Source: Chryseobacterium indoltheticum
GTDB lineage: Bacteria; Bacteroidota; Bacteroidia; Flavobacteriales; Weeksellaceae
Reading direction: 5' to 3'
Assembly (NCBI RefSeq): GCF_003815915.1
Contig: NZ_CP033929.1
Span: 3,844,001-3,908,000, forward strand
Length of the DNA stretch: 64,000 nt
Shown here one piece after another: positions 21,972 to 42,788 of this stretch. A program made the translations under genes and the position numbers. The notes beneath the pieces were generated by a model. That model was not told the origin of the DNA. It made no database searches and saw nothing but the letters and a program-made list of their open reading frames with translations. Position 1 is the stretch's first letter. Each line of letters starts with the position of its first letter.

Positions 21972-22293
21972 GTTTTCAAAAGATTAAGACCAACAAAATC
22001 TTTGTAATCTGTAAAATCTTATTTAACCTGATTTTGGGTTAAGCACTAATCGTAAACACTAACTTTTAGTCAAGTATATATTTTAACGCATGGTGAATTT
22101 TACTCTTTTATAATAAAATAAACAAAGAAGAATCAACAAGTTGATTTTATAAGCTTTTGCTCAAGCTTTGCGAAGAAAATTTCTTTGTCTTTGCTTTTTA
22201 AATAGATAGTTTAATGATAAAATCTTTGCGTTTAATGATTTAAAAACTATTATCAGAATCGCTTATCCCGAACTGAGGTTATTATTAAAAACA

Positions 22294-22331: not shown

Positions 22332-22332
22332 G

Positions 22333-22403
22333 TAGACCCACAGGGATTCGAACCCCAACTGATGGTACCAAAAACCAGAGTGCTACCGTTACACCATGGG
22401 TCT
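22333..22403 (-). tRNA. tRNA-Gln (anticodon TTG), copy 1
   Basis: Read on the reverse strand: acceptor arms AGACCCA/TGGGTCT (seven pairs), D arm with GGTGTAACGGTAGCA, anticodon loop TTTTGG with TTG, T arm TTGGGGTTCGAATCCCTG, discriminator A, no encoded CCA. An identical copy in the same orientation lies at 42701-42771. Confidence 0.96.
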
Positions 22404-22418
22404 GTATTTTTAGTGATG

Positions 22419-22449
22419 CAAATTTACAGATTTTTTCTTTATCTGCAAA
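22419..22449 (-). promoter_or_regulatory. Promoter of tRNA-Gln copy 1
   Basis: On the reverse strand TTTG, a 19-base spacer and TAAATTTG form a perfect Bacteroidetes promoter ending 16 bases before the tRNA. The second copy at 42789-42819 has the same boxes and spacing. Confidence 0.8.
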
Positions 22450-22548
22450 TCAATTTCTATTTTTTTTGATTTTTCTTTTACCTCATCAGCTTACTTTCAA
22501 CATAATCATCTGTTTATTAGACGTTCTTCTCAATGATTCAATTTTTTA

Positions 22549-22597
22549 GAAAAAAAAATGAATTGAAGTCATATTAATTGGTAGACTTCAATTCATT
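22549..22597 (-). terminator. Terminator of surface-protein operon 1
   Basis: AATGAATTGAAGTC (22557-22570) pairs with GACTTCAATTCATT (22584-22597). On the reverse strand it is followed by a run of T residues. It ends the operon that includes the interrupted companion gene. Confidence 0.8.
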
Positions 22598-22630: not shown

Positions 22631-23185
22631 TTACGGCTTCCAGAAGCTCCATACTGTACCGTTGAAAACAGCAAGCTGTTTGGCGGTGGTATCATACACC
22701 ATCATTCCCGGTGCGGGATTAATGATATTAAGATGCGGGCTCGCAACTCTCGGAAGAATCATCGCCTTGTTGGTATCTTCTAAAACCAATATTCCCGGTG
22801 TAGCTGTCGGTGTACCGATTCTTACCACCGCATCAAGGTTTTCTGTCGTTACATTATTTTGTATCGTTACAAGATCTACAGCAGAGTTTAAAGGATCTAT
22901 CGTGGTACCGGTGAGGTCTACCGAGAGATCTTTCCAGCCTGATATATTTTTTGTTTTCACTTTGTGATCAGAAAGGTCATAGACTACCGTTCCTTCAACG
23001 GCGCCAGAAACAGCACCTGTATTGGTTACTCAAGGAAGTATCATGCCCCGGTTTTCGTTTCCGAATTCTAAGGAAATGGAACTGTTTTGAACCGATCCTT
23101 TCCCTACTGCCACCTGAGCAGGAATCAACAGCGTACTCACAAGGAGTACTGCTGCTGAAGTTATAATATTATTCTTATTTATCAT
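22631..23185 (-). pseudogene. Companion gene of operon 1, interrupted by an in-frame TGA
   Basis: Starting at ATG 23185 (MINKNNIITSAAVLLVSTLL) the frame matches the intact companion at 30458-31012 throughout, but codon 52 is TGA (bases 23030-23032) where the intact copies have TGG in ILPWVT. After the stop the frame continues uninterrupted to the normal end (NGTVWSFWKP) with only a few substitutions in about 109 residues. Reading through would give a 184-residue exported protein with two copies of the GMMVY-type module. The lack of other damage suggests a recent mutation, or a sequencing error. It lies 40 bases downstream of the large gene at 23226-28976. Confidence 0.8.
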
Positions 23186-23225
23186 TTTCAATTGTGCGTT
23201 TTAAAATTAAAATCACCTTTATTAA

Positions 23226-26200
23226 TTACGGACAAGCCTGCGTATTAAAGCATTTCCAACCAGTCGGAGTTCCGTCCGTATTAATGTATAGACAGTCTGA
23301 ACTAATATTATACACCATCATTCCTTCTCTCAGATCACCTGCCGGAATAAGATTAATCTGAGCAATTGTCAACCTGTTGGGTACAAAACCTTTGGTTTTA
23401 GCTTCCAAAGCAGTCCATGCCCCTTTTCTTACCATTGGCCAGTTATCGGCATTTACTCCTGCTCTTCCCAGAGAAGTAATACCTTGTGGTGTGTCTAAAA
23501 CTATTCCTGATGTAGCAGCAGGCACATAGCAGAAGCAGTTTGCAATAGCCATATTAATCGCATTGGCATAAGTAGAGGCATAATTGGTAATACCATTTTG
23601 ATCGGGATCTACACTATCGTTCAATCCGTCATTATTGGCATCTGTTGCCATAGGATTAAGCTGACTTCCTGATAATTTAAATGCCGCTATTCCATAGCTT
23701 AAGCCGTTATTATTCGTTACTGAAGCAGGCGTACTTATGTCTGTTGCAGGACTCACTCCTGACTCTGCTAAATCTGAACATCCGTCGCCGTCACTGTTTA
23801 GATCCAAATGATTAGGAACTCCATCCCCATCCGTGTCTACCGAACATATTCCAGGTTTAGGATGAGCTGAAGCAATGTAGACAGGTGTAACGGCTATAAC
23901 AGATGATATTTCCTGAATACCTGCAGTTCCTGTATTGAAAGCTGCAGTGTTACCTGCCGCTATTGTACCTACAGCTCTGATCTGGTAATACCTGTACGGA
24001 GTAGTCACAGCATTGGCAAAAGTTACCGAAGTGGTGTTTAGTGCAATCCCATTACCGCTTGTCAGTAAAATATAACTTACCCCATCAACAGAGCCATATA
24101 GCTTTCCAAACGTACTGGCATTAGTAGACATGCCGCTTGCAATCTGGGTAACAGTAAGAGAACTTAAAGTAACCGGTGTTGGATAAGTAACTGTAAAGAT
24201 CGTCGCTTCCGATGCTACCGATTGGCTTACAAAATTATAAGGATTAGCATCAGATGCATTGCCATTATGTAAAGTAGCAATCTCAGTATTTGCTGTAGGA
24301 TCTCCGGCAGCTGCATTAAGCGGAGAAGTAACACTAGTGATAGTATTGGCTTCAGCTGCAGTGTAGAAACAAGCCGGGCTTTCTGTAGCATCTACAATAC
24401 CATCATTGTCGTCATCTATATCATTAAGATCGATAATGCCGTCGCCGTCAGTATCCGTACATACATTCAAAGCTGAATTTATTGCATATTGAGTATAAGT
24501 AGATGCATAATTAGTAATACCGCTATCCGGCATGGTCTCTACATTATCACCTATCCCGTTATCTCCATAATTACCACCAACAATAACATGAGTTCCCGGA
24601 ACATTACCTCCTGCATTAAAGAAATTAGCCGGAACTAATAAAGCTTTATCAATACCTGCTTCTACAGCATCCGGACAACCATCACCATCACTGTCTCGGT
24701 CTACATAGTTGGGAACGCCATCGCCATCGTTGTCAGAATTACATCCCATTTTGGTACGATGTAGAGAAGGGTTATAGTTTTTATACTGAATCGTGAATTC
24801 TATTAATCGGGCATTATTGGTAATATTCACATTATCAATCCCTATAATTCTGTAAGAATGATATCTTGTGGTAATATGTTGGGTGTTGCTAAAGGTATAT
24901 GTAGAGTTAGCAGTCAACATATTTTGACCTAAAGTATCAGACAGATCTGTCCACATATTGGTATCAATGTCCAAGCCTTGCAACTTCCATTTTCCACCCC
25001 CGAAAGCTACACCACCTACATTCAATTTTACATTGTCGATGAGTGCCGCATCAATGACCGGCAGATCAAAAGTAATCAATGCTTTATTCTGAATACTCAC
25101 TGCTGGAGTTACTGCCCCATAATTGGTTGTTGCTGTATTATTATCATAAGTATTTGAGAGCGGATCAGCTGTTGCCCATGTAAAGTCTGAAGTTACTGCT
25201 TCAGTAATATCCATAGCCTGGGCTTCTGTATAAAAACAAGAAGGTGATTCTACCGCATCCGGAATCCCGTCATCATCAGTATCGATATCCATCAAAAATT
25301 TATTGTCACAAGCACTCACATCTGCAGCGTCAGCAATAAATTGGTAAGTATACACATGTTTATACGCATCAGGATTGGAGGCAGATTGTAAAGCATCAGC
25401 GAAACCGTTGCTGCCATAAGGTCCCGGCACCATTGCATTGGGAACATTAGGAGTGGTAGAAGTTACTGCTCCTCCACTACCATTCTTAACAGTCCCGGGT
25501 ACAGATGCTTCCGTTGAGTGGTTATAAAGAATCGCTTCTTTAGTATCCGGACAGCCATCGCCATCGCTATCCAAGTCTAGACGGTTAGGGATACCATCAT
25601 TATCGGTATCGGTGAAAGCACCGCAAGCTAAAGTACTTACTAAACTTACACCATCAAGCACAATGTATTGGATATTTCCACTAGAGACTTCATTATTTGT
25701 TGTAAAGGTTAAATCATGTGATGTTGCCGTAGGTATAAATGTCATTTCTACCTGAGACCACTCCTGATTAAGTGGCCCTAGAAAAGGCAAACTCGGAGAA
25801 TATTGTATTTCATTTCCTAACTGAACTTTCCAACGAATTTGAGGAGTTGTAGCATTAACAGGAGTTGTTCCATCGATACCTGCATTGGCCTGATAAAATG
25901 TTAATTTATAAGGAACACCAATCGTTAAACCAGAAACAGTAGTTTTCATTCCTTCAATAATATTGGCATTTGTTAATCCGCCAACAAATATACCTCCGCT
26001 TGGAGACGCTTTCATTCCGTTTGCTATTCCGCCCCAATTTCCGGAGCCAACAACAGGTATTCTATAAGCTCCATTCAAAAGAGTTGTAGGATTCCATGAA
26101 TCAATAGAATTAGTTGTTTCTATCCAACCTGATGAAACAGTAGCATTTCCATGTATGTTATTTTGGTTATTGCCATTGGTCTCATTGGTCCATTCACTCG

Positions 26201-28976
26201 TACTGGCAACTGGTTGCAATATCTCAAATGATCCATCAGCTGAAAGAGCTTCACAAGGTATCATTTCAATCACATCCAAAACCCCGTCATTATCATCATC
26301 TATATCTTTAACATCAGGTATCAAATCTCCATCACTATCCAAACAAGCGCTTATTGCTGCATTGGTTGCATAATCAGTATAGGTTGAAACATAATTGATG
26401 GTTCCTGCAGTGGTAGAACTTTCAAACTGATTGAGCAATCCGTTGTTATTAGCATCGGCTCCCGTATTGAAAGTGGTCGTATTATTACTTGTATAGACTG
26501 TATTTCCTGCTTCTACAGAATCACTACATCCGTCACCATCGCTATCTAGATCTCTGTGGTTGGGTACACCGTCACCATCGGGATCATTAGTACATGTTGA
26601 TTTCGGGTGTGCAGAAGGAATATAATCGGAAGCTGCTGTTAAACCTACTTCTGTAATATCTACATTAGATACTGTCCCAAGGATGCCTTGTAATCTGTAT
26701 TTTGTATATATTGCCTGCGAACCGCTTGGAATTGCAAAACTCTGAATATTAGCCGACGAATTAGCCGGAGTGTAAGTATGCAAGGGTATCCATATAGTAC
26801 CATTCCATCCATCAACGCTCACTGAGCTGCCCGTAGCACCCAATGCATTTGCAGTGGCAGCATTATAACGAATGTATAGCGCAATTGCCTTTAAAGGAGT
26901 TGAAGGCGTAATTTCAAAGACCGTTAAATTAACTTTGGTAGAATTATTTGTAAAAGCAAATGTTGTAGCTATATTATTATCATAAACATTAGCAATTGTA
27001 CCTGTGTTTGCAACCTGTGTTGTAACAGACTGCGGAACAGCAATTTCAGCAGCAGTAGAGAAACAAGAAGGACTTTCTACAGCATCTAATACCCCATCAT
27101 TATCATCATCAATGTCATTAATATCTAATATGGTGTCCCCGTCTGTATCAGCACAAGCTGCATAATTAGATCCTATCGCATAAGGGTTATAAGTTGAAGG
27201 ATAATTAACAGCTCCTGGTGTTGTTGTACTTTCTACAGAATCGTTTAAACCATTATTGTTTAAATCAATACCATTAGGGTTTAACTGGCTTCCTGTCAAT
27301 TTATTTGCGGCAATACCATAGCTCGTTCCGTTATTATTGGTAGTAGATGATGGCGTACTGATGTCGCCCGGCGGATTAGGCAAAACGCCAGATTCTGCCA
27401 AATCTGAGCATCCATCTCCATCGCTGTCTAAATCCAAATGGTTAGACACAGCATCTCCATCGGTATCGCAACTTCCTGCAAATACCGACATCACTTGTAC
27501 AAAAACCTGATCAAAACCTGTTGTATTATTTGATCCGGATACTATAAACCTATGAATTTTAGAGTTGTTTAGCGTTTGGGTAGTATCTACACTCATTGTA
27601 GAGCCATCAGGAAATGTTCCTGTATAAATAACCGTACCTGCATCATCAAAACAGACTAATGTAAGCGTACTGCCATCTGTTGCAGGCTCTGCGGAAACCT
27701 GAACTCTGTCTACCAGCCTTTTCTGATTTGTAAAAGGATTATAGTATTCAAATGAATAGGATACAGCATCTGCAAAAAAAATATATTCGTTATCAGCATC
27801 TCCTGAATGACTGACAATATTAAAGTTATCACGAACGATATTATAAGGTGCCACCTTACTTCTTTCTCTGATAATTAAACCGTACTGACTATACAAAGCA
27901 TTAGAAGCATTAAGACCGGAAGGTAATGTTTCTGTAAGATTTTTAACTCCACCTGCTATAGTCTGTATTCCGGATCCACATTCTACCGTATCGGGTATGC
28001 CGTCATTATCATCATCAAGATCTACACCGTCTGCGATGCCGTCTCCATCTGAATCGGCCGTGGCACTGATATTTTTATTAAGAGCATACTCAAAATAAGT
28101 AGAATTATAATTTACATAGCCGTTATTGTCAGCATCTACTGCATCCACAAGACCATCGTTGTTAGCATCTACATCCGGGAATTGGTAATTAGAAGCGGTG
28201 TTGGTTGTAGCTCCGGCTTCCAGGGCATCAGAATAGCCATCACCATCACTGTCCAGATCAAAATGAGGAAGAATATTATCCCCATCGATATTAGCGTCTG
28301 TACAGCTTGTTTTAGGATAGCGTGATGAGATATAATTATCAGGCATCAGCAATTTTACTTCTCTTATTTGGCTTCCGACAATTGTGCCTGCAAGCCCCTG
28401 TAAACGAAATTTGCTGTAAGCCGTATTTTGATTTTGAGTAAAATTAAAAGTCTGGTAGAGTCCTTGTGCCGTATTAGGAGCAGCGCTCGGATTAAATGCT
28501 GGCATCAATGTGATCCACGCAGTACCATTCCAGCCTTCCATCGTAAGAGAAGCTGCAGTATTAGAAAATTCGGTTTGTCCGTAAAAATTCATCTCAATCT
28601 GTAATCCCGCTGCTACAACAGACCGGATTGGAGTGACTTCAAAGACGGTAAGATTTACTTTAGTAGTACCATTAGTAAAATTAAATAGCGTAGCAGGATT
28701 ATTATCATACAAATTAGCTATTGTTCCTGAATGAGCAACCGTTGTTGTTACAGAAGCAGGAATGGCTATTTCGCTGGCGGTATAATAACAGTTCGGACTT
28801 TCTGTTGCATCCGGTACACCATCATTATCATCATCAATATCAATGGAATTAATAATTCCGTCTCCGTCAAAATCGTCATTTGGTCCGGTTTGAGCATAGA
28901 CTATACCTGATGAGAGGAGGGAAAGGAGAAATATTTGGCAAAACAAAAATCTCCAGAGGATAGTTTTTTTCATCAT
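23226..28976 (-). CDS. Giant modular surface protein 1 with thrombospondin-type-3 repeats
   Basis: This 1916-residue protein has a signal peptide (LFCQIFLLSLLSSGIVYAQ). Six modules follow, each opening with a calcium-binding TSP3-like stretch (DGDGIINSIDIDDDNDGVPD and variants) ending in an ESP-C type motif at about residues 60, 332, 635, 905, 1249 and 1534. Between them lie beta-rich domains of 150-200 residues resembling discoidin or jelly-roll folds, and DLDSDGDGCSD repeats. The last 90 residues (about 1827-1916) form an end module (GREGMMVYNISSDC, GTPTGWKCF) shared with the companion proteins. No type A T9SS sorting domain is present. Likely an extracellular adhesin or binding protein; ligand unknown. 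Confidence 0.85.
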   Translation of the reverse strand: MMKKTILWRFLFCQIFLLSLLSSGIVYAQTGPNDDFDGDGIINSIDIDDDNDGVPDATESPNCYYTASEIAIPASVTTTVAHSGTIANLYDNNPATLFNFTNGTTKVNLTVFEVTPIRSVVAAGLQIEMNFYGQTEFSNTAASLTMEGWNGTAWITLMPAFNPSAAPNTAQGLYQTFNFTQNQNTAYSKFRLQGLAGTIVGSQIREVKLLMPDNYISSRYPKTSCTDANIDGDNILPHFDLDSDGDGYSDALEAGATTNTASNYQFPDVDANNDGLVDAVDADNNGYVNYNSTYFEYALNKNISATADSDGDGIADGVDLDDDNDGIPDTVECGSGIQTIAGGVKNLTETLPSGLNASNALYSQYGLIIRERSKVAPYNIVRDNFNIVSHSGDADNEYIFFADAVSYSFEYYNPFTNQKRLVDRVQVSAEPATDGSTLTLVCFDDAGTVIYTGTFPDGSTMSVDTTQTLNNSKIHRFIVSGSNNTTGFDQVFVQVMSVFAGSCDTDGDAVSNHLDLDSDGDGCSDLAESGVLPNPPGDISTPSSTTNNNGTSYGIAANKLTGSQLNPNGIDLNNNGLNDSVESTTTPGAVNYPSTYNPYAIGSNYAACADTDGDTILDINDIDDDNDGVLDAVESPSCFSTAAEIAVPQSVTTQVANTGTIANVYDNNIATTFAFTNNSTKVNLTVFEITPSTPLKAIALYIRYNAATANALGATGSSVSVDGWNGTIWIPLHTYTPANSSANIQSFAIPSGSQAIYTKYRLQGILGTVSNVDITEVGLTAASDYIPSAHPKSTCTNDPDGDGVPNHRDLDSDGDGCSDSVEAGNTVYTSNNTTTFNTGADANNNGLLNQFESSTTAGTINYVSTYTDYATNAAISACLDSDGDLIPDVKDIDDDNDGVLDVIEMIPCEALSADGSFEILQPVASTSEWTNETNGNNQNNIHGNATVSSGWIETTNSIDSWNPTTLLNGAYRIPVVGSGNWGGIANGMKASPSGGIFVGGLTNANIIEGMKTTVSGLTIGVPYKLTFYQANAGIDGTTPVNATTPQIRWKVQLGNEIQYSPSLPFLGPLNQEWSQVEMTFIPTATSHDLTFTTNNEVSSGNIQYIVLDGVSLVSTLACGAFTDTDNDGIPNRLDLDSDGDGCPDTKEAILYNHSTEASVPGTVKNGSGGAVTSTTPNVPNAMVPGPYGSNGFADALQSASNPDAYKHVYTYQFIADAADVSACDNKFLMDIDTDDDGIPDAVESPSCFYTEAQAMDITEAVTSDFTWATADPLSNTYDNNTATTNYGAVTPAVSIQNKALITFDLPVIDAALIDNVKLNVGGVAFGGGKWKLQGLDIDTNMWTDLSDTLGQNMLTANSTYTFSNTQHITTRYHSYRIIGIDNVNITNNARLIEFTIQYKNYNPSLHRTKMGCNSDNDGDGVPNYVDRDSDGDGCPDAVEAGIDKALLVPANFFNAGGNVPGTHVIVGGNYGDNGIGDNVETMPDSGITNYASTYTQYAINSALNVCTDTDGDGIIDLNDIDDDNDGIVDATESPACFYTAAEANTITSVTSPLNAAAGDPTANTEIATLHNGNASDANPYNFVSQSVASEATIFTVTYPTPVTLSSLTVTQIASGMSTNASTFGKLYGSVDGVSYILLTSGNGIALNTTSVTFANAVTTPYRYYQIRAVGTIAAGNTAAFNTGTAGIQEISSVIAVTPVYIASAHPKPGICSVDTDGDGVPNHLDLNSDGDGCSDLAESGVSPATDISTPASVTNNNGLSYGIAAFKLSGSQLNPMATDANNDGLNDSVDPDQNGITNYASTYANAINMAIANCFCYVPAATSGIVLDTPQGITSLGRAGVNADNWPMVRKGAWTALEAKTKGFVPNRLTIAQINLIPAGDLREGMMVYNISSDCLYINTDGTPTGWKCFNTQACP

Positions 28977-29495
28977 TTGTGTTTTTTTAAGATTGTTATT
29001 TCCTTAAAATACTTGTTTAATACTGATAATTCAGCAATATTAAATACTACATCAATAAACAAATATTCCTTAACAAAAGTATATAAATTTTAAATAATTT
29101 CAACATTAATACTTAAAAATATTAAAATTAATAACTTATTTTGCACACAACATATTAAATATACCTAATATCAACTTGTGCATTTCACTCAGGAATCACG
29201 ATAATTTAACAAAAAATTCAACAACAGAACTGTACTTTATCTTAGTACTTCTTACTACTTTTTCTTACAATTAACTGAGTCATCTTTTAAATATGTGAAG
29301 AGACGTTCCTGAATTTATTATTCAAAAAAATGACCCTATTTATTTTTCTATTTATAATTTTTATTACATTTGATAAACACAAAAACACAAATCTATTCCT
29401 CAATTAATATTCTGCTGTTCTCTATTTCTTGTCGATTATTTTTCAACATTGTGGTATATTAACTTCTTAATATAAAAACACTTTAAAAACAATAA
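28977..29495. other. AT-rich intergenic region upstream of operon 1
   Basis: About 520 bases, very AT-rich, separating divergent genes. Just before the large gene the reverse strand carries AAAAAAACACAAATG, the leader motif seen in front of most genes of this island. A TACATTTG box near 29363-29370 could be part of a promoter for the gene at 29496. I see no further gene. Confidence 0.4.
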
Positions 29496-29981
29496 ATGAT
29501 GTCTAAAAATCAAATCAGTGTAGAAATTCCTCAGGAAATTATCACACAAGTAAGCTCAAAGTTTCAGGAGATTAAAGATCTGCTAGCTCCCTACATGGGA
29601 AACATGACGGTAGAAGAACGAAAAACGCTTCCTAAAATGAGTGATAAAAGCGTTGCTTTCGTCAACAAAGTTATCGAGTACACTATAGCCAACCCCAAAT
29701 TTGTCCCTACGATGATGGATGCGCAAGAGTGCAAAAAAGATTACACTGCCAACCAGGCTTTATTGCCATTATATGCGGTATCTCAACAAGTAGGTGAAAT
29801 GATGAAAGATACCATCATGCTTACCGGGCACGAAGCCTACGTGCAAGCTCTTTATTACTATGGCAGCGTAAAATTGGCCGCCAGAGCAGGAGATGCGGAA
29901 GCAAAAACCATTGCTGAAGACCTAAGCAAACGTTTTCCCCGAGGCAAGGCCTCTTTAGAAAACAAAGCTGGCGGCATATAA
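29496..29981 (+). CDS. Conserved-looking cytoplasmic protein, unknown function
   Basis: This 161-residue, mostly helical protein has no signal peptide or membrane segment. It opens MMSKNQISVEIPQEIITQVSS and contains VEERKTLPKMSDKSVAFVNK and a C-terminal GDAEAKTIAEDLSKRFPRG. I do not recognise a characterised family. The ATG at 29499 is an alternative start. It stands alone on the forward strand between two reverse-strand surface-protein operons, so it may be unrelated to them or a passenger of the island. Confidence 0.7.
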   Translation: MMSKNQISVEIPQEIITQVSSKFQEIKDLLAPYMGNMTVEERKTLPKMSDKSVAFVNKVIEYTIANPKFVPTMMDAQECKKDYTANQALLPLYAVSQQVGEMMKDTIMLTGHEAYVQALYYYGSVKLAARAGDAEAKTIAEDLSKRFPRGKASLENKAGGI

Positions 29982-30014
29982 TTGTTTTAGCCCGACCTTT
30001 TTACTCCGACATTC

Positions 30015-30175
30015 TAGCATTGAGCTCAAATGTTTAAGCTGTCAGCTAAAACACTTGAGCTTTTAACTCAAACATTTGAGCATTTAGGTCTGATGTTTGG
30101 GTATTTTACTCAAATAATGGAGTGTATTAGTCAAGCTTTTAAGTATATAGGTCGGATATTGAAGCTTTTAGCTCA
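30015..30175. repeat. Degenerate 21-base tandem repeat with palindromic core
   Basis: About eight successive units of 20-22 bases follow the rough consensus GCTCAAATATTTGAGCTTTTA; good examples start near 30022, 30043 and 30064. The first 16 bases of the consensus are a perfect palindrome. The array lies just after the gene ending at 29981, and no open frame crosses it. The remaining bases to 30388 are AT-rich without a gene. Confidence 0.6.
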
Positions 30176-30387
30176 GCTGATAACGCATTACGCTTGCGCA
30201 TTTTAATCATTGGTTTTCGAAAACAGGCAGAAGCTTTTGCTTTATTATCGCAACGAAAGACAATGTTTTTATAATGAATGTGCTTTTTAAGTTAAATAAA
30301 GGCATTTGACTTCGTCGAATCTTCGATTTCATTTAGCAAAGAAATACAAAGACTTATGATCAGCATATAATGTTGATTTCTCAATGC

Positions 30388-30436
30388 AAAAAAAAAAAAA
30401 AAGAATACCTCTCATGCAATCTGCACGAGAGGTATT
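30388..30436 (-). terminator. Terminator of surface-protein operon 2
   Basis: AATACCTCTC (30404-30413) pairs with GAGAGGTATT (30427-30436), with TGCA/TGCA further inside. On the reverse strand it is followed by an unusually long T run (about 15 A residues at 30388-30402). Confidence 0.85.
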
Positions 30437-30457
30437 TTTAAGTTTTTTAAAGATATG

Positions 30458-31012
30458 TTACGGCTTCCAGAAGCTCCATACTGTACCGTTGAAAACAGCA
30501 AGCTGTTTGGCAGTGGTATCGTAAACCATCATTCCCGGTGCAGGATTAATAATATTCAGATGCGGACTCGCAACTCTGGGAAGAATCATTGCCTTGTTGG
30601 TATCTTCTAAAACCAATATTCCCGGTGTTGCTGTCGGTGTACCGATTCTTACCACCGCATCAAGGTTTTCTGTCGTTACATTATTCTGTATCGTTACAAG
30701 ATCTACAGCAGGGTTTAAAGGATCTATCGTGGTACCGGTGAGGTCTACCGAGAGATCTCTCCAGCCTGATATATTTTTTGTTTTCACTTTATGATCAGAA
30801 AGATCGTAGACTACCGTTCCTTCAACGGCGCCAGAAACAGCACCTGTATTGGTTACCCAGGGAAGTATCATGCCCCGGTTTTCGTTTCCGAATTCTAAGG
30901 AAATAGAACTGTTTTGCACCGATCCCTTCCCTACTGCCACCTGAGCAGGAATCAGCAGTGTACTCATAAGGAGTACTGCTGCTGAAGTTATGATGTTATT
31001 GTGTGTTATCAT
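30458..31012 (-). CDS. Companion protein of operon 2 (exported, two GMMVY-type modules)
   Basis: This 184-residue protein has a signal peptide (ITSAAVLLMSTLLIPAQ). It contains two versions of the same short module: residues about 44-92 (NRGMILPWVT, EGTVVYDLSDHK, GWRDL) and about 138-184 (NKAMILPRVA, PGMMVYDTTAKQ, NGTVWSFWKP). Similar modules are common at the ends of secreted Bacteroidetes proteins, often in repeat-rich surface or tail-fibre-like proteins. It follows the large gene by 33 bases, so the two are co-transcribed. The pairing, repeated three times, suggests a chaperone, anchor or partner role for the large protein, but this is inference. Confidence 0.8.
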   Translation of the reverse strand: MITHNNIITSAAVLLMSTLLIPAQVAVGKGSVQNSSISLEFGNENRGMILPWVTNTGAVSGAVEGTVVYDLSDHKVKTKNISGWRDLSVDLTGTTIDPLNPAVDLVTIQNNVTTENLDAVVRIGTPTATPGILVLEDTNKAMILPRVASPHLNIINPAPGMMVYDTTAKQLAVFNGTVWSFWKP

Positions 31013-31045
31013 TTAGTTGTGTGTTTTAAATTTAATAAATTACTA

Positions 31046-34000
31046 TTAATCCGGGCAAGCCTGTGTATTAAAGCATTTCCAGCCAGTCGGCGTTCCGTCG
31101 GTATTAATGTATAGACAGTCTGAACTAATGTTATATACCATCATTCCTTCTCTCAGATCACCTGCCGGAATAAGATTAATCTGAGCCAACGTCAATCTAT
31201 TAGGTACAAAACCTTTTGTTTTGGCTTCCAAAGCCGTCCATGCCCCTTTTCTTACCATTGGCCAGTTATCAGCATCTACCCCCGCTCGGTGTAAAGAAGT
31301 GATCCCTTGTGGAGTGCTCAAAACTGTTCCTGATAAAACGGCAGGTCTGTAACAGAATAACGTACAAGATGCTATTGCTGCATTAATGGCGTTAGAATAA
31401 GTAGAAGTATAATTGGTGATGCTGTTTAGATCAGCATCAACACTGTCATTCAAACCGTCATTATTAGTATCGGCAGCAGTCGGATTTAGCTGGCTACCGT
31501 TCGGGTTGGCAATCCCATAACTTCCACCAGCATTATTGGTCAACAACGGTGTAATGATATCCGTTGCAGGACTCACTCCTGACTCTGCCAAATCTGAACA
31601 TCCGTCGCCATCGCTATCCAGATCCAAATGATTCGGAATGGTATCACCATCGGTATCTACAGAACAAATTACCGGTTTAGGATGAGCTGAAGCAAGGTAG
31701 ACAGGTGTAACAGCTATAACAGACGATATTTCCTGAATACCTGCAGTTCCTGTATTGAAAGCTGCAGTGTTACCTGCCGCTACTGTACCTACAGATCTGA
31801 TCTGGTAATATCTGTACGGAGTAGTCACAGCATTGGCAAAAGTTACCGAAGTGGTGTTTAGTGCAATCCCATTACCGCTTGTCAGTAAAATATAACTTAC
31901 CCCATCAACAGAGCCATATAGCTTTCCAAACGTACTGGCATTAGTAGACATGCCGCTTGCAATCTGGGTAACAGTAAGAGAACTTAAAGTAACCGGTGTT
32001 GGATAAGTAACTGTAAAGATCGTCGCTCCCGATGCTACCGATTGGCTTACAAAATTATAAGGATTAGCATCAGATGTATTGCCATTATGTAAAGTAGCAA
32101 TCTCTGTATTTGCTGTAGGATCTCCGGCAGCTGCATTAAGCGGAGAAGTAACATTTGTGATAGTATTAGCTTCCGCAGCGGTATAAAAACAAGCCGGGCT
32201 TTCAACGGCATCTGCAATACCATCATTGTCGTCATCTATATCATTAAGATCGATTATTCCGTCACCATCAGTATCTGTACATAAATTTAGAGTGCTTACA
32301 ATCGCATATTGATTATAGCTATATATGCCGGTATATGCAGCAGATGAGGTATCATTTGTTTCAATACCAGAGTAGAATCCGTTTGTGCCATAGGCTGCAG
32401 GAGTATTATTACCTACAATAGCGTTGGCTACCCCTGTTTGTGTACCGCTTGTATTTACTAAAGTTCCTGCTGAGGTGTTTCCTGCACCCGCCTGAGATGC
32501 CGTTCCTGCTTCTACAGCATCCGGACAACCATCGCCGTCACTGTCGAGGTCTAAATGATTGGGAATACCATCATTATCTATATCTAAGCCATTAAGACAA
32601 GATTCTGCATTTGAAATGCCATTAAAGCTTAATCCTACAGCATCTACGTAGCTTGCTGTTGTGCCAGTTAATCCATAATAAATAAATCTTACATAGTATC
32701 TGGTATTCAAATTTAAAGGATAATTACTATAAGTATCCATGGTATTATACACAATATTACCTCCGGTTACAGTTGTCGCCCCAGTAGTTAAAACTGTATA
32801 GGTAGCAAAGCTTGGATCAGTAGATATGATAACACCTTCTTTTAATGGTGCTTGAATGGTATAATTAGATATTTTATCGATTGACAAATAGGTTGAAGTC
32901 GTAGTAAAATAATATTGCATATAATCTCCATTCGCAACGGCATCATCGAAGTTCGCTGCTGTAGCCCCTGTAAACTTTAAGACATTGGCGCCAGACACAT
33001 CCACAACACCAGGACCAAAAGTACGCACATTATATGGTTGTGTTTGAGCAGCGTTATACTCTGTGGTTGGTAAAGTATGAAGAGTCTGTTCAAAATCCCA
33101 TACTAACACATTAGACGCATCATCTCTATCTACAATAGCACAAGAAGGTGACTCAACAACATCCAGCACTCCATCATTATCATCATCTATATCTATTACA
33201 TCTACTATACCATCACCATCGGTATCAGTACATGCTTTAATAGAGGCTTTGATAGCATACATATTATATGTAGAAACATAGGTAACGATACCATTATCTG
33301 CCGTTTCTAAGGAATTATCTAATCCGTTAGTCCCTACAGATCCGGTAAATTTATAATTAGCAGTCAAATTACTTGTTGCTCCTCCTTCCATAGCATCGCT
33401 ACAACCATCACCATCGCTATCTAAATCTAAATGATTAAGAATACCATCACCATCGGTATCGCTAGCGCAGGTGGTCTTAGGATAAGATGACGCTATATAT
33501 GATGCATTATTAAAATCAAAATAAACTTCAGAAGCATTGGCTGCAATCATGTTTGATGCGGTAGCACCTCCTGTGATTCTGATATATTTATAAGCCGTTG
33601 CTGTATTAAGCGTCACCGGATATTTGATAGAAGTGGTTACACTTACTGCACCATTTGCTGTAATATTAGTAGCCGGCCCTGCTCCAATTGAGGCAGAAAG
33701 ATCTACCCAGTCACTTCCATTATTAGTATTAGACCCTTGAATCTTTGTCACTCCACCAAACTGGGTTGTTGTATTAAATTGAAGATATAATGCATCTAGT
33801 TTTACAGGTTGAGCAAAATTAAACAGGTAAACATTCGCATTTGCATTCGATTGTGCAGGCGATGCAGAGAAAGCAACTGCCGTTGTACCGCTTACGCCAT
33901 CGATTAATTGGCTAAAGTTAGCCGTCGTAGTCGTTAATCCCGAAGAAATTGTAACCCCATAGAAAGGTTTCGCCCCAGTATTCCATTCACTTGCTGTATA

Positions 34001-36796
34001 GAAACAAGATGGGCTTTCTAGCGCATCGACAACCCCATCATTATCATCGTCAATATCTACAAAATCATTAATACCATCTCCATCGGTATCAGCACAAAGA
34101 CTAATAGCATTGCTAATAGCAAAAGGATAGGTATAAGTCCCGTTATAAAGACCACTCTCTACAGTCGTTTCAATACCATTAAAGAAACCGTTGGTACCAT
34201 ATTGAGCTGGCGTACCGTTTCCTACATAAGCATTGGCAGTTCCTGATGGAATACCACCCGTGTAAATCGCTCCACCACTTGCAGACATTGAAGCAGATGC
34301 TCCAGCATTAGTCGAAACACCAGATTCTCTTGCATCCGGACAACCATCACCGTCACTGTCTAAATCCTGATGGTTGGGTATACCATCGCCATCGGTATCT
34401 ACCGTACAATTGATAGGTTTGGGATTGGCAGAAGGAATGTATCCTGCTGTATTCTGAATGGATGTAATCTCAAAGGTCGTAATAGCCGATGTTGTAGTTC
34501 CTGCCACTTTTACAATTCGGTAATATCGATAACTATTGGCGGTATTGTTATTAACGGTAAAAACTTTCGGATTAGCTATCGCTGCCGTTGCTGCAGTCAT
34601 TAGCTCGTCCCAAATGATTTTATCATTAGAACCCTGTATTTTTGCCGTAGCACTTGTACCGAAAGTAGTCCCGTAATGTGAAATACTTGTCAGCTTTACT
34701 TTTGTAGGATATTCAATATTGTATATGACAGCGCCATTTATAGGCTGCCCATCTGTTATCACATTATTACTAACCGTAACATTTCCTGTAGCTTCGTCAT
34801 GCATGAAAGGTAAATCTACATTTACCCCATCATCATTTATCAATGATGTGGAAACTACTTCTATTGTTCCTGCTTCGCCGGACGTATAGAAACAAGACGG
34901 GCTTTCAGTTGCATCCAATATACCATCGTTATCGTCATCGATATCGGTAAGGTCATTTATTCCATCGTCATCAGTATCCGTACAGGCGTTTATAGCTAAA
35001 TTTGTTGCATATAGATTATAAGTAGAAGTATAATTAGGAACCCCATTTACATCAGAATCTATGCTATCATTCAGTCCATCATTATTTGTATCGGCAGCAG
35101 AAGGATTTAGCTGGCTTCCGGTCAATTTATTTGCGGCAATACCATAGCTGCTTCCTACATTATTGTTTATAGAAGCCGGAGTACTTACATCTGTAACAGG
35201 ACTTACTCCTGATTCTGCCAAATCTGAGCATCCATCTCCATCGCTGTCTAAATCCAAATGGTTAGGCACACCATCTCCATCGGTATCGCAACTTCCTGCA
35301 AATACTGACATCCCTTGTACAAAAACCTGATCAAAACCTGTAGTATTAAGAGAACCGGATACTATAAACCTATGAATTTTAGAGTTATTTAGAGTTTGGG
35401 TAGTATCTACACTCATTGTAGAGCCATCAGGAAATGTACCTGTATAAATAACCGTACCTGCATCATCAAAACAGACTAATGTAAGCGTACTGCCATCTGT
35501 TGCCGGCTCTGCGGAAACCTGAATTCTGTCTACCAGCCTTTTCTGATTTGTAAAAGGATTATAGTATTCAAATGAATAAGATACAGCATCTGCAAAAAAA
35601 ATATATTCGTTATCAGCATCTCCTGAATGACTGACAATATTAAAGTTATCACGAACGATATTATAAGGTGCTACCTTACTTCTTTCTCTGATAATTAAAC
35701 CGTACTGACTATACAAAGCATTAGAAGCATTAAGACCGGAAGGCAATGTTTCTGTTAGATTTTTAACTCCACCTGCTATCGTCTGTATGCCGGATCCACA
35801 TTCTACTGTATCGGGTATGCCGTCATTATCATCATCAAGATCTGCATCGTCTGCGATGCCGTCTCCATCTGAATCGGCCGTGGCACTGATATTTTTATTA
35901 AGAGCATACTCAAAATAAGTAGAATTATAATTTACATAGCCATTATTATCTGCATCCACTGCATCCACAAGACCATCGTTGTTCGCATCTACATCCGGGA
36001 ATTGGTAATTAGAAGCGGTGTTGGTTGTAGCTCCTGCTTCCAGGGCATCAGAATAGCCATCTCCATCACTGTCCAAGTCAAAATGAGGGAGAATATTATC
36101 CCCATCAATGTTAGCATCTGTACAGCTTGTTTTAGGATAGAGCGATGCAATATAATTATTGGGCATCAGCATTTTCACTTCTCTTATTTGGCTTCCGACA
36201 ATTGTGCCTGCAAGCCCCTGTAAACGAAATTTGCTGTAAGCCGTATTTTGATTTTGAGTAAAATTAAAAGTCTGGTAAAATCCTTGTGCAGTATTAGGAG
36301 CAGTGCTCGGATTAAATGCTGGCATCAATGTGATCCATGCAGTACCATTCCAGCCTTCCATCGTAAGAGAAGCTGCAGTATTAGAAAATTCGGTTTGTCC
36401 GTAAAAATTCATCTCAATCTGCAATCCCGCTGCTACAACAGGCCTGATTGGAGTGACTTCAAAGACGGTAAGATTTACTTTAGTAGTACCATTAGTAAAA
36501 TTAAATAGCGTAGCAGGATTATTATCATACAAATTAGCTATTGTTCCTGAATTAGCAACCGTTGTCGTTACAGAAGCAGGAATGGCTATTTCGCTGGCGG
36601 TATAATAACAGTTCGGACTTTCTGTTGCATCCGGTACACCGTCATTATCATCATCAATATCAATGGAATTAATAATTCCGTCTCCGTCAAAATCGTCATT
36701 TGGTCCGGTTTGAGCATAGATTATACCTGATAAGAGGAGGGAAAGGAGAAATATTTGACGAAGCAAAAATTTCAAGAGGGTCGTTTTTTTTATCAT
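31046..36796 (-). CDS. Giant modular surface protein 2 with thrombospondin-type-3 repeats
   Basis: This 1916-residue paralogue of the protein at 23226-28976 has the same signal peptide type and six modules, with ESP-C motifs at about residues 60, 332, 634, 929, 1217 and 1535. Modules 1-2 (to about residue 515) and module 6 plus the end module (from about 1495) are almost identical to protein 1, while modules 3-5 are different sequences of the same general type. The gene lacks the AAAACACACA leader found before the other island genes. It is followed by the companion gene at 30458-31012. Likely secreted, calcium-stabilised and surface-exposed. Confidence 0.85.
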   Translation of the reverse strand: MIKKTTLLKFLLRQIFLLSLLLSGIIYAQTGPNDDFDGDGIINSIDIDDDNDGVPDATESPNCYYTASEIAIPASVTTTVANSGTIANLYDNNPATLFNFTNGTTKVNLTVFEVTPIRPVVAAGLQIEMNFYGQTEFSNTAASLTMEGWNGTAWITLMPAFNPSTAPNTAQGFYQTFNFTQNQNTAYSKFRLQGLAGTIVGSQIREVKMLMPNNYIASLYPKTSCTDANIDGDNILPHFDLDSDGDGYSDALEAGATTNTASNYQFPDVDANNDGLVDAVDADNNGYVNYNSTYFEYALNKNISATADSDGDGIADDADLDDDNDGIPDTVECGSGIQTIAGGVKNLTETLPSGLNASNALYSQYGLIIRERSKVAPYNIVRDNFNIVSHSGDADNEYIFFADAVSYSFEYYNPFTNQKRLVDRIQVSAEPATDGSTLTLVCFDDAGTVIYTGTFPDGSTMSVDTTQTLNNSKIHRFIVSGSLNTTGFDQVFVQGMSVFAGSCDTDGDGVPNHLDLDSDGDGCSDLAESGVSPVTDVSTPASINNNVGSSYGIAANKLTGSQLNPSAADTNNDGLNDSIDSDVNGVPNYTSTYNLYATNLAINACTDTDDDGINDLTDIDDDNDGILDATESPSCFYTSGEAGTIEVVSTSLINDDGVNVDLPFMHDEATGNVTVSNNVITDGQPINGAVIYNIEYPTKVKLTSISHYGTTFGTSATAKIQGSNDKIIWDELMTAATAAIANPKVFTVNNNTANSYRYYRIVKVAGTTTSAITTFEITSIQNTAGYIPSANPKPINCTVDTDGDGIPNHQDLDSDGDGCPDARESGVSTNAGASASMSASGGAIYTGGIPSGTANAYVGNGTPAQYGTNGFFNGIETTVESGLYNGTYTYPFAISNAISLCADTDGDGINDFVDIDDDNDGVVDALESPSCFYTASEWNTGAKPFYGVTISSGLTTTTANFSQLIDGVSGTTAVAFSASPAQSNANANVYLFNFAQPVKLDALYLQFNTTTQFGGVTKIQGSNTNNGSDWVDLSASIGAGPATNITANGAVSVTTSIKYPVTLNTATAYKYIRITGGATASNMIAANASEVYFDFNNASYIASSYPKTTCASDTDGDGILNHLDLDSDGDGCSDAMEGGATSNLTANYKFTGSVGTNGLDNSLETADNGIVTYVSTYNMYAIKASIKACTDTDGDGIVDVIDIDDDNDGVLDVVESPSCAIVDRDDASNVLVWDFEQTLHTLPTTEYNAAQTQPYNVRTFGPGVVDVSGANVLKFTGATAANFDDAVANGDYMQYYFTTTSTYLSIDKISNYTIQAPLKEGVIISTDPSFATYTVLTTGATTVTGGNIVYNTMDTYSNYPLNLNTRYYVRFIYYGLTGTTASYVDAVGLSFNGISNAESCLNGLDIDNDGIPNHLDLDSDGDGCPDAVEAGTASQAGAGNTSAGTLVNTSGTQTGVANAIVGNNTPAAYGTNGFYSGIETNDTSSAAYTGIYSYNQYAIVSTLNLCTDTDGDGIIDLNDIDDDNDGIADAVESPACFYTAAEANTITNVTSPLNAAAGDPTANTEIATLHNGNTSDANPYNFVSQSVASGATIFTVTYPTPVTLSSLTVTQIASGMSTNASTFGKLYGSVDGVSYILLTSGNGIALNTTSVTFANAVTTPYRYYQIRSVGTVAAGNTAAFNTGTAGIQEISSVIAVTPVYLASAHPKPVICSVDTDGDTIPNHLDLDSDGDGCSDLAESGVSPATDIITPLLTNNAGGSYGIANPNGSQLNPTAADTNNDGLNDSVDADLNSITNYTSTYSNAINAAIASCTLFCYRPAVLSGTVLSTPQGITSLHRAGVDADNWPMVRKGAWTALEAKTKGFVPNRLTLAQINLIPAGDLREGMMVYNISSDCLYINTDGTPTGWKCFNTQACPD

Positions 36797-37490
36797 GGTT
36801 CAGTTTTTATTAATACAGAAAATTCTTCAGTCAAAACAAACTTTTAAATGTTTATCTGAACATTAAAATATTAGCAAAATCATTTAAATAATCATTATTA
36901 ATTAAACAATCTTAATTTAACATAATTTAGGAGACTAAGATATTCAAATTAATTTTAGAAATATATTAAATACTATTAATTAATCTCCTCATTAATAAAA
37001 ACATATAAAAAAAACGTTAATTACCAAATATACAAAACTCTGAAAACCAATAAACTAATTAAAAAAAAGTGTTAATTATGAATATGTATCACAAAGCTAT
37101 TTTTTATGGTTTCAATATCTATAATATACACTCATTGCCAGCACAATAAGCATATTCTAAAAATCAATAATTATTATCTATTATAATCAGATATATACTA
37201 ATTTTGCTCAATTTTTAGTTATAAACAATGATTATCGTATTAAAATGAGTGTAAAAACTTTCAATTACTGTTGTTCTAAATAACTAATCACCGAATTAAA
37301 AAATTAGTCGATTTTCAACCATTACAAGTAATGAAAACAACCAAAATATACAGTTGCATTAATTTTTTTAAGAAATAGACGCAATTATGAGATAAAAATT
37401 CACAATTTCCATAGGGCATCTTTTATTTAAACTCAACAATATGAATTTCGAAAAATAGCTGCGATAATTTTTATTATTCTGTATTCGAAC

Positions 37491-37700
37491 TTCACATCTT
37501 TTTTTCCTGAAGTCTTAGTTCCAGCCAATTTTTGAATTGTGCTTTATCTTTCGTTTTTACCAGAATAGATAAGGATAAACAGTATTAAGTTCCTTCATCA
37601 ATGTAGAATCAGCGGTCTATAACCGTAATTGACCTACAGCAATATCTTTTGCCGAAACGATAATTGTTTTCACCGATCTCAATAAAGAATTCCTGATCTC
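37491..37700 (-). pseudogene. Decayed fragment of a DUF389-type gene (C-terminal part)
   Basis: On the reverse strand, two frames separated by a frameshift and broken by a stop read VKTIIVSAKDIAVGQLRL, then ADSTLMKELN, then SILVKTKDKAQFKNWLELRL. These line up in order with the C-terminal part of the intact DUF389 protein at 41074-42387 (EMKILFPEVENISLGKVEQ, TDSTTIQLVLLF, KLQNWLSTRLN). The rest of the gene is missing or unrecognisable. Its place upstream of operon 2 mirrors that of the intact gene upstream of operon 3. The surrounding 36797-37770 region otherwise holds only AT-rich DNA. Confidence 0.6.
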
Positions 37701-37771
37701 ACATCATCAGCACTTCGTATTAAACAATAACATGTATATTTTCAGTGATTCTCGATGCGTTCTAAAAAAAT

Positions 37772-37807
37772 AAAACCTCTCAATGCAAACGTTGCATGAG
37801 AGGTTTT
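37772..37807 (-). terminator. Terminator of surface-protein operon 3
   Basis: AAAACCTCTC and GAGAGGTTTT arms with ATGCAA/TTGCAT further inside; on the reverse strand it runs into T-rich sequence. The outer stem is the same as in the operon 2 terminator. Confidence 0.8.
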
Positions 37808-37830
37808 TTCTAAGTTTTTTAGAGTATATC

Positions 37831-38391
37831 CTAAGGCTTCCAGAAGCTCCACACTGTACCATTGAAGACAGCTAGCTGTTTGGCGACAGTATCATAAACC
37901 ATCATTCCCGGTGCCGGATTAATAATATTAAGATGCGGACTCGCAACCCGAGGAAGAACCATCGCCTTATTGGCATCTTCCAGAACCAATATCCCCGGCG
38001 TGGCTGTCGGCGTACCGATTCTTACTGCCGCATCGGTATTTTCTGTGGTTACATCATTCTGTATCGTTGCAAGATCTACAGTAGCATTGTGGGGATCTAT
38101 AGTCGTACCCGTAAGGTCTACCGAAAGATCTTTCCATCCTGATGCAATTTTTACTTTCACTTTGTGATCAGAAAGGTCATAGACTACCGTTCCTTCAACA
38201 GCACCTGCAACAGCACCCGCACTGGTCACCCATGGAAGTACCATTCCACGGTTTTCATTTCCGAATTCTAATGAGATAGAACTATTCTGTACCGATCCTT
38301 TTCCTATGGCAACCTGAGCATATACTAGCGTTCCACAAGAGAGAAAAGCCATTGCGTAAAGCATTCTTTTTACTAATGTTATTTTATTCAT
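37831..38391 (-). CDS. Companion protein of operon 3 (exported, two GMMVY-type modules)
   Basis: This 186-residue protein has a signal peptide (MLYAMAFLSCGTLVYAQ), different from those of the other companions, whereas the mature part (VAIGKGSVQNSSISLEFGNE onwards) is very similar to the operon 2 companion, including both modules and the NGTVWSFWKP end. It follows the large gene by 36 bases. The sharp change at the signal-peptide boundary suggests recombination or independent 5' ends. Confidence 0.8.
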   Translation of the reverse strand: MNKITLVKRMLYAMAFLSCGTLVYAQVAIGKGSVQNSSISLEFGNENRGMVLPWVTSAGAVAGAVEGTVVYDLSDHKVKVKIASGWKDLSVDLTGTTIDPHNATVDLATIQNDVTTENTDAAVRIGTPTATPGILVLEDANKAMVLPRVASPHLNIINPAPGMMVYDTVAKQLAVFNGTVWSFWKP

Positions 38392-38427
38392 AATGTGTGT
38401 TTTTTTACGATTTACAGATAAGTACTA

Positions 38428-40626
38428 TTAAGGACATGCTCTTGTATTAAAGCATTTCCATCCTGTCGTAGTTCCGTCGGTATTAATGTAAATACAGTGT
38501 AGATCAGTATTATAAACCATCATACCATCCTTTAGATCAGATGCAGGAATATCCGTGATTTGCTGAGCAGTTAATCTGTTGGGTACAAAACCTTTGGTTT
38601 TAGCCTCAAGAGCAACCCAGCCTCCTTTTCTTGCCATTGGCCAATTGGCCTTCTCAATTCCTGCTCTTGCCAAAGAAGTCATTCCGCTTTGAGTTTCTAA
38701 TGCAGTACCGGAAGTAATTGCCGGTTTGTAGCAGAACAATGTACACGAAGCTATTGCTGCATTAATTGCGCTGGCATACGTATAAACTCCGGTATAAGCA
38801 GCAGTTGGCGTATCATTATTTTCTCCAGCATTATAAAAGCCGTTGGCTCCATAATTTGCAGGAGTATTGTTTCCCACAATTGCATTCGAAACGCCTGTCT
38901 GTATGCCACTTGTATTTATCAATGTTCCTGTGCTCGTATGATTTGCTCCCGCATGACTTGCGGACCCTGCTTCTACAGCATCCGGACAACCATCACCATC
39001 ACTGTCCAGATCTAATTCGTTGGTAATACCATCATTATCTGTATCTATATTGGTACATTCTATTTTTGTTTGTCCATTCACCTGGAACTCTCTAAATTGA
39101 GCATCACTTCCTGCCAAGCCATTAACCGGCGTGCTCCACGTTATTTTTACAGTTGCCGTATTGCCAACAGGGGTAAAAGATAAAGTTTTGTAACCATGAT
39201 CAACTGACAAAGATGCAGGGTTTGTTTGATTAGCTACAGTTGAGAAACTTTGTAATGTAACCCCATTCACAGCCAATGTCACACTATTAGCATCAGGATT
39301 CTGTATATTTAATGAATAATAATGATACTTTAACGTGTTTACAACTCCCGGATTAAGATCGGAAAGCGTAAAAGTAAATGATTCTGTACCGTTATCCTGA
39401 TATCCTTGTACATACGTTCCGGCTGATGCTAAATAATTGACACCGCTGTTAGCATCCTTTACACCACCCCAGGTACCGGGACGATAATCTTCATATAAAG
39501 GCAGCCCTGTATCTATACAACTTTGTTCGACAGTGTCTAAAATACCATCGTTATCGTCATCAATATCAATAGAGTTGCTGATACCGTCGCCATCAAAATC
39601 TGTACATTTATTAGAATTTATATTAGTGCTTATATCTACTGATTGTCCTGTTCCTGCAATAGTAGGTATTCCCATCGTACCGGAAGTTGCACCCACTGTA
39701 TTTCCTAGATTCTGGGTAATCGGCGCAGCGCTGGTTCCATTATAAGAAGTTCCGCTATTTCCTCCAGGAATGGAAGAATTCACAAGATGAGGTGTAGCAA
39801 AATCAGCACCGCCCTCAATTGCATCAGGACAGCCATCTCCGTCACTATCAAGATCAAACTTATCAGCAAGACCATCATCATCAGTATCTAAACACGTATT
39901 AATATAATAATAAACATCATCTATAAAAATATCGTCACCTGTAGAACTATATTTGAATTCTATCTTCCCAGTTTCAGAAAGAGCTGCTGCATTAAAGACT
40001 ATTTGCAAATCATAATAAGCAGATAAACCAATAGACCTTGGCGAAGAAGGCCCCAAAAGACTTCCATTCACCCTAAACTCGGTAATAATACTGTTAGCTG
40101 CCGGATCTCTAGTAATTGTAGGATTATTTGAGTTGGCAGGATTGCTTATACCAAACAGCCTCACACCTCCTAAGTAAGCACCCATCTCCATAGATTTTGT
40201 AGCAATGGCTCCTACGTTAGCAACATAATTTTCTGTTTTCACTTTTAGCACATATATCGGGTTTGATGTACATGAATTTTTAAAGACTACATTTGATTGA
40301 GAAGCACTTACCGCAGGAGATACACCATCATAACGCCCCGTTAAGGCATTAGCATAATTTGACCAGCCTGCCACCAATGACCAATTATTTGTATTAGAAT
40401 TAAAAGTAGGATTTACTACGGTATTGAAAACACCAGTACCCTGCTCGAGTATATCTGGAATACCATCGTTATCATCATCTAAATCAGTTTGATTGACAAC
40501 GCCATCACCGTCGTAATCATCTGTAGGAGCTGTCTGGGCTGAGAGATTGCCAAAAAACAGAATAAGGAATACAGCCAGAAATTTACTATATAGCATAAAG
40601 CTACATAAGGCATAATTTTTTTTCAT
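38428..40626 (-). CDS. Modular surface protein 3, short version with two modules
   Basis: This 732-residue protein has a signal peptide (LYSKFLAVFLILFFGNLSAQ). It carries only two large modules, with TSP3-like openings DYDGDGVVNQTDLDDDNDGIPD and DFDGDGISNSIDIDDDNDGILD at about residues 37 and 345, each followed by a beta-rich domain. DLDSDGDGCPDAVE repeats precede the same C-terminal end module (KGFVPNRLT, GMMVYNTDLHC, GTTTGWKCFN) as in proteins 1 and 2. It is the most divergent of the three and may represent the simpler form of the unit. Confidence 0.85.
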   Translation of the reverse strand: MKKNYALCSFMLYSKFLAVFLILFFGNLSAQTAPTDDYDGDGVVNQTDLDDDNDGIPDILEQGTGVFNTVVNPTFNSNTNNWSLVAGWSNYANALTGRYDGVSPAVSASQSNVVFKNSCTSNPIYVLKVKTENYVANVGAIATKSMEMGAYLGGVRLFGISNPANSNNPTITRDPAANSIITEFRVNGSLLGPSSPRSIGLSAYYDLQIVFNAAALSETGKIEFKYSSTGDDIFIDDVYYYINTCLDTDDDGLADKFDLDSDGDGCPDAIEGGADFATPHLVNSSIPGGNSGTSYNGTSAAPITQNLGNTVGATSGTMGIPTIAGTGQSVDISTNINSNKCTDFDGDGISNSIDIDDDNDGILDTVEQSCIDTGLPLYEDYRPGTWGGVKDANSGVNYLASAGTYVQGYQDNGTESFTFTLSDLNPGVVNTLKYHYYSLNIQNPDANSVTLAVNGVTLQSFSTVANQTNPASLSVDHGYKTLSFTPVGNTATVKITWSTPVNGLAGSDAQFREFQVNGQTKIECTNIDTDNDGITNELDLDSDGDGCPDAVEAGSASHAGANHTSTGTLINTSGIQTGVSNAIVGNNTPANYGANGFYNAGENNDTPTAAYTGVYTYASAINAAIASCTLFCYKPAITSGTALETQSGMTSLARAGIEKANWPMARKGGWVALEAKTKGFVPNRLTAQQITDIPASDLKDGMMVYNTDLHCIYINTDGTTTGWKCFNTRACP

Positions 40627-42695: not shown

Positions 42696-42700
42696 CAAAG

Positions 42701-42771: not shown

Positions 42772-42788
42772 GTTTTATTTTGGTGATG

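Follow-up and report, generated by a model that had tools for sequence, protein, structure and literature searches.

Large exported proteins and small companions of Weeksellaceae share a module in a constant 1 + 2 count

Introduction

Substrates of the type IX secretion system (T9SS) that carry a type B C-terminal domain (CTD) commonly have a partner gene directly downstream, according to the available sections of PMC12618676. In the MAT fibres of Bdellovibrio, phage-like trimeric modules occur in surface adhesins with varied binding domains, as described in the accessible part of PMC10769870. The C-terminal domain of BamM holds seven ions, assigned as calcium in the available excerpt of PMC12611786. 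Here we describe a paired system of Chryseobacterium indoltheticum (Flavobacteriales, Weeksellaceae) that can be compared with each of these. The window, i.e. the whole stretch of DNA analysed, comprises 64,000 nucleotides (nt) of contig NZ_CP033929.1 (positions 3,844,001 to 3,908,000) within a 4.25-Mb single-contig genome, whose closest named relatives at the protein level are Chryseobacterium and its allies. Three operons on its reverse strand each encode a large exported protein, hereafter the giant, and a small exported companion.

The system resembles the T9SS type B pair SprB-SprF, as far as the available sections of PMC12618676 describe it, in having a large adhesin-like protein, a conserved C-terminal domain and a downstream partner, in matched pairs and in the same phylum. 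It differs from SprB-SprF in that the end module of the giants matches no T9SS CTD family and is sometimes internal, and in that the companion is built of the giant's own end module and has no PorP/SprF match. A search of the open-access literature on Chryseobacterium, Weeksellaceae adhesins and T9SS, with subscription papers not covered, found no description of the pairing among the papers listed, in line with an earlier note on this DNA, whose author knew of no described system of this kind. The paired system looks like a way of constructing surface proteins that has yet to be described. Adhesins that carry phage-fibre-type trimerisation modules are known; the new element would be the 1 + 2 split of such modules over two genes.

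Results

A module shared by giants and companions

The three giants end in a region of about 100 amino acids (aa) with 70-92% identity among them. The companion consists of two modules of about 60 aa in tandem, and the end region of the giant holds one copy of the same module. Profile comparisons gave probabilities of 96.6% for companion module 1 versus module 2, 97.2% for module 2 versus the end module, and 91.4% for module 1 versus the end module; in the control, 30 column shuffles per comparison all remained below 1%.

Modules were counted in 83 giant-companion pairs (85 less two with truncated end modules) from loci that had been chosen by a two-module profile. In all 83 pairs the giant contained one module and the companion two. 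Moreover, none of the 386 module-bearing open reading frames (ORFs, counted repeatedly where loci overlap) contained three or more modules. Flavobacteriaceae-type genomes gave weak matches only, and in four such loci each protein had one module, located at the N-terminus of a secreted protein.

Among the matches listed, precomputed annotation assigns the new Pfam family PF26696 to all 120 companions and to 112 of 120 end-module proteins. The last ~27 positions of DUF2793 (PF10983), a family without assigned function, match 39 of 40 companions below the cut-off (best score 26.0 versus 27 bits). Companions listed under a proper name are annotated as hypothetical or uncharacterised.

Constancy of the pairing

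The consistent two-gene pairing claimed by the earlier note was borne out in three samples of genomes. In 59 genomes including the own genome, represented by the 150 best companion and 150 best end-module matches, at least 120 of 150 companions and at least 120 of 150 end modules formed same-strand pairs, the two matches lying 5-359 nt apart; these counts are lower bounds, and contig ends also break pairs. Among GTDB representatives, the best 80 of 306 stretches encoding a relative were taken as named loci, in which 85 of 91 companions had an end-module ORF just upstream. Three of the other six have the giant directly downstream (reversed gene order with the companion first, in L146, L151 and L164), one lies beside a giant with an internal module, one lies at a contig end, and the sixth is separated from its giant by 653 nt that contain an opposite-strand ORF. 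No true orphan was shown among the 91 companions in the named loci.

The third sample was an order-wide draw of 196 genomes. Here, an end module was located at most 500 nt upstream of 79 of the 96 companions of at least 100 bits among the matches listed. Outside the own genus, this applied to 49 of 62 companions. Of the end modules, 79 of 99 were paired. These 99, out of 150 listed, comprise the end modules above about 55 bits and two weak ones of genome G009; without the two weak ones, the count for companions becomes 77 of 96. Companions of at least 100 bits among the matches listed were confined to the own family and G038, a genome of another family, and three own-genus genomes and one own-family genome of the draw gave no match. 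The earlier note had conceded that its idea would fail if companions commonly occurred without a large partner, which was not the case in any of the three samples.

Companion matches numbered 1 to 19 per own-genus genome (36 genomes including the own genome) and 26 in one genome of another family. The own genome contains two further pairs outside the window, which brings its total to five. In view of these two pairs and the recurrence across genus and family, the operon pattern is not an accident of local duplication. No third gene was found constantly beside the pair.

End-module frames of 346-353 aa made up 17 of 150 among the matches listed, and this short form is perhaps a core member. One such protein of 352 aa, with a companion, is encoded in locus L095, flanked by what we take to be an Lrp/AsnC-type regulator and an mnmE-like gene. 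Pedobacter lies outside the order; the companion of locus L174, found on a contig of 7.3 kb that bears the label Pedobacter changchengzhani, represents either transfer or contamination.

Matched divergence of end module and companion

Distances between end modules and distances between companions correlate at 0.795 (83 pairs, 53 genomes). When partners were shuffled within the 21 genomes with more than one pair (51 pairs), the correlation averaged 0.471 and never exceeded 0.735 over 2000 trials, such that the observed value lies above all of them. For 57 of the 83 pairs, the nearest end-module neighbour from another genome was among the three nearest companions. The matched divergence of the sequences supports contact between the two proteins but is not proof, as co-duplication of the operon could give the same pattern.

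Variable bodies and the position of the module

A search of a protein collection with the giants' end region yielded 412 proteins. Their bodies, among the 120 of the 412 matches listed, included PF18483 (19), DUF11 (8), FN3 (7), Big_2 (5) and F5/8 C (2). The accessions were precomputed in Pfam and their names are given as we assume them to be; PF18483 is presumably a bacterial lectin. The end module is also joined to SdrD_B/Ig/cadherin-like bodies, as in the fourth pair of the own genome (C1:2133485), of which the giant has an SdrD_B/Ig/CshA/cadherin-like body. The giant of the fifth pair (C1:2405573) matched no Pfam family at E<=0.1. A surface location of the giants is suggested by the adhesin- and lectin-like bodies.

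The earlier note had described the giants by calcium-binding TSP3-like stretches. DxDxDG-type motifs occur 16, 21 and 6 times in giants 1, 2 and 3, far above the maximum of one in 500 residue shuffles of each, but the three window giants have no Pfam match to TSP_3 (PF02412) at E<=1; one homologue, P0249, does have PF02412. The closest named model is BamM (NF053691), matched with 109.8, 139.1 and 36.4 bits versus a cut-off of 315. The giants thus resemble BamM and TSP3 repeats in their DxDxDG-rich stretches, and differ from full-length BamM in that their best-matching stretches are confined to profile positions 232-321, a part that we take to be the calcium-binding domain of BamM. One part of giant 2 weakly matches an F5/8-type C domain (E 0.0013, below the cut-off). 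TSP3-like stretches were just one of many bodies joined to the end module, and did not hold as the feature of the partner that the earlier note had made of them. It is the C-terminal module rather than the Asp-rich stretches that defines the pairing.

In 201 of 206 retrieved proteins, the module lies at most 10 residues from the C-terminus. In four of the others (P0277, P0284, P0324 and P0326) it is internal and followed by a further C-terminal domain, and the giants in loci L093 and L155 likewise continue past the module. A T9SS signal was found in none of P0277, P0284, P0324, P0326 or L093. In the fifth exception, P0241, a two-module companion continues into an NHL-type propeller at the C-terminus; this companion brings its own cargo.

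Export signals

The signal peptides of the giants and the intact companions are ordinary and end in A-Q. Within their first 40 residues, none of the three giants shows a simple lipobox pattern, and the two intact companions of the window have A-Q-V without Cys at the end of the signal peptide. Giants and companions alike lack this feature of a surface lipoprotein. The T9SS CTD families TIGR04183 and TIGR04131 were found neither in the three giants (E<=1) nor in 25 end modules (E<=10), whereas elsewhere in the own genome there are 66 matches to TIGR04183 (type A) and 15 to TIGR04131 (type B). PorP/SprF was not among the 18 Pfam families matched by 40 companions at E<=10, in agreement with the earlier note, which had considered the companions unlike SprF.

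Fold likeness

The companion is predicted to fold into two small three-stranded modules. Structural matches, all short and weak, were obtained with the N-terminal domain of Mtd, the tailspikes of phage CBA120 and the collagen XV/XVIII trimerisation domain, and sub-threshold Pfam matches with Mtd_N and Collagen_trimer. These fold and profile matches are weak but converge, and may point to trimeric phage-fibre and collagen modules. Furthermore, the predicted template modelling score (pTM) was higher when one end module was added to one companion, in an indirect, one-chain read-through model.

The three operons of the window

The features of the three operons are listed in Table 1. Of the plan proposed in the earlier note, the order of giant, companion and stem, the export signals and the gaps of 33-40 nt (40, 33 and 36 nt in operons 1, 2 and 3) were all recovered, but giant 3 comprises only 732 aa. 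The companion length of 184-186 residues applies to companions 2 and 3, but not to the interrupted companion 1. A stem with T-run follows each companion, where the note had placed a strong terminator. Only the stem after companion 2 was picked up by the terminator scan, which gave 11 terminators in total, no more than the shuffled mean (11.1).

Table 1. Features of the three giant-companion operons, in window positions
Feature	Position	Strand	Description
Giant 1	23226..28976	-	exported, 1916 aa; Asp-rich (TSP3/BamM-like) stretches and C-terminal end module
End module of giant 1	23229..23540	-	about 104 aa; module core is the last ~60 aa; by alignment and module profile
Companion 1, interrupted	22631..23185	-	in-frame TGA at codon 52
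Stem after companion 1, terminator-like	about 22557..22597	-	14 pairs, A+T-rich, T-run; by folding, absent from terminator-scan list
Giant 2	31046..36796	-	exported, 1916 aa
End module of giant 2	31049..31363	-	by alignment and module profile
Companion 2	30458..31012	-	184 aa; two modules in tandem behind the signal peptide
Companion 2, module 1	30743..30943	-	about residues 24-90
Companion 2, module 2	30467..30655	-	about residues 120-182; more conserved copy
Terminator after companion 2	30404..30436	-	15-pair stem, T-run; by terminator scan and folding
Giant 3	38428..40626	-	exported, 732 aa; same kind as giants 1 and 2
End module of giant 3	38431..38742	-	by alignment and module profile
Companion 3	37831..38391	-	186 aa
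Stem after companion 3, terminator-like	about 37772..37807	-	long stem, T-run; by folding, absent from terminator-scan list

At the DNA level, giants 1 and 2 are 94% identical over the 5' 1.7 kb and diverged in the middle, with 89% identity at the 3' end including the companion. They form a mosaic with shared start and end and a differing middle. The three operons sit between two copies of tRNA-Gln (22332-22403 and 42700-42771), as if the block had arisen by duplication or insertion between the tRNA copies. The tRNA-Gln(ttg) is duplicated together with its flank (22332-22467 versus 42700-42839; 140 nt at 92%), bracketing the operons. A unit of ~231 nt is repeated six times head-to-tail at 46217-47602 (90% matches; no ORFs of at least 100 aa), and a 70-nt piece of this stretch recurs inverted (84%) at 22220-22289, beside tRNA-Gln. 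A forward-strand ORF of 161 aa without Pfam match is located between operons 1 and 2 (29496-29981), and a DUF389 membrane protein is encoded upstream of giant 3, at 41074-42387.

Discussion

We consider it fairly probable that the one module of the giant and the two modules of the companion form a heteromeric pseudo-trimer and in this way complete the base at the C-terminus of the adhesin. According to this proposal, each operon would encode an interchangeable adhesin-like body ending in one trimerisation-type module, and a companion supplying the other two. Both proteins would be exported via Sec, after which one companion would dock on the C-terminal module of the giant. The three homologous modules (1 + 2) would then close a three-sided beta-prism that completes and stabilises the base, and the assembled base may hold or export the giant. 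The fusions and the extensions past the module fit this arrangement.

Several trimeric systems offer a comparison. The N-terminal domain of Mtd, itself a homotrimer, the CBA120 tailspikes and collagen XV/XVIII may share with the present modules, by short weak matches, a three-stranded sheet per module; in these units, however, one module per chain forms a homotrimer, whereas here the modules are split 1 + 2 over two secreted proteins. As in MAT, going by its description in the accessible part of PMC10769870, putative trimer-type modules are combined with varied domains. In that description the fibres are trimers and the variable domain is at the C-terminus of the fibre, whereas in the present pairs the variable body comes before the module, and two further modules are contributed by a second gene. 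Collagen XVIII trimerbodies engineered as single chains (available text of PMC4921811) close a pseudo-trimer of defined stoichiometry from three homologous trimerisation modules, as proposed here, but are man-made and carry all three in one chain.

A wider proposal is more tentative, and we give it slightly less than even chances: that Weeksellaceae divided a phage-fibre-type homotrimeric module 1 + 2 between an adhesin and an exported partner. The result would be a heteromeric pseudo-trimer serving as common base, perhaps also as a composite export or anchoring signal, for many interchangeable bodies, in a genome with a full set of T9SS substrates whose known signals are left unused on these proteins.

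Not all companions are intact. Apart from its stop, companion 1 shows 97% identity with companion 2; the stop is a TGA at about 23030-23032 in place of a codon that is Trp in companions 2 and 3; the ORF list contains only a GTG-start fragment of 109 aa there. In the companion at C1:2133846 (L005, L183), a TAG replaces Gln at the signal-peptide junction. Two of the five companions of the own genome are thus interrupted by single nonsense codons while all five giants are open, and 5 of the 150 companion matches listed in the 59 genomes have an internal stop. This is evidence against a strict need for the cognate companion, unless paralogues serve in trans.

Alternatively, the end module could be a third secretion or sorting CTD beside T9SS types A and B, with the companion as a dedicated shuttle, escort or anchor, i.e. 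an unrelated protein in a SprF-like role. As a working analogy, a type B CTD served by a SprF shuttle encoded downstream comes closest to the pair described here, which differs from it in both parts. The own genome is rich in T9SS substrates, yet the giants, with neither T9SS signal nor lipobox, still need an exit route, and the predominantly C-terminal position of the module (201 of 206) would suit such a signal, as would the downstream partner genes common among type B substrates (PMC12618676, available sections). The internal modules of the four retrieved proteins and of L093 and L155 are not what one would expect of a C-terminal export signal, and a purely C-terminal export-signal role is disfavoured because some giants extend past the module. 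Furthermore, the companion is homologous to its supposed client module and gave no match to a PorP/SprF family, and single modules occur at the N-termini of other proteins. We regard a third CTD as unlikely.

Improbable, too, is that giant and companion each homotrimerise and are stacked on one threefold axis (3 + 3), like phage-fibre modules. The trimeric look-alikes among the structural matches, which we take to be homotrimers, count in its favour, and the related proteins with a single N-terminal module would have to self-trimerise. The constant sum of 1 + 2 = 3 modules and the higher pTM are as expected of a 1:1 pseudo-trimer, although neither is proof.

It is very unlikely that the companion acts as a small surface protein in its own right, only co-transcribed in an operon that spreads by duplication and without contact to the giant: linkage alone can yield matched trees and two own-genome companions are interrupted beside open giants, but the two proteins share a module, they stay paired although the bodies change and the gene order can be reversed, and the named loci showed no true orphan.

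Genomes of the genus carry many such pairs. If the heteromeric pseudo-trimer is correct, it would name a large class of adhesin-like proteins with unknown export signal, and the 1 + 2 module rule would offer a way to find and pair such proteins. It would also represent a natural heteromeric version of a trimer known as a product of protein engineering.
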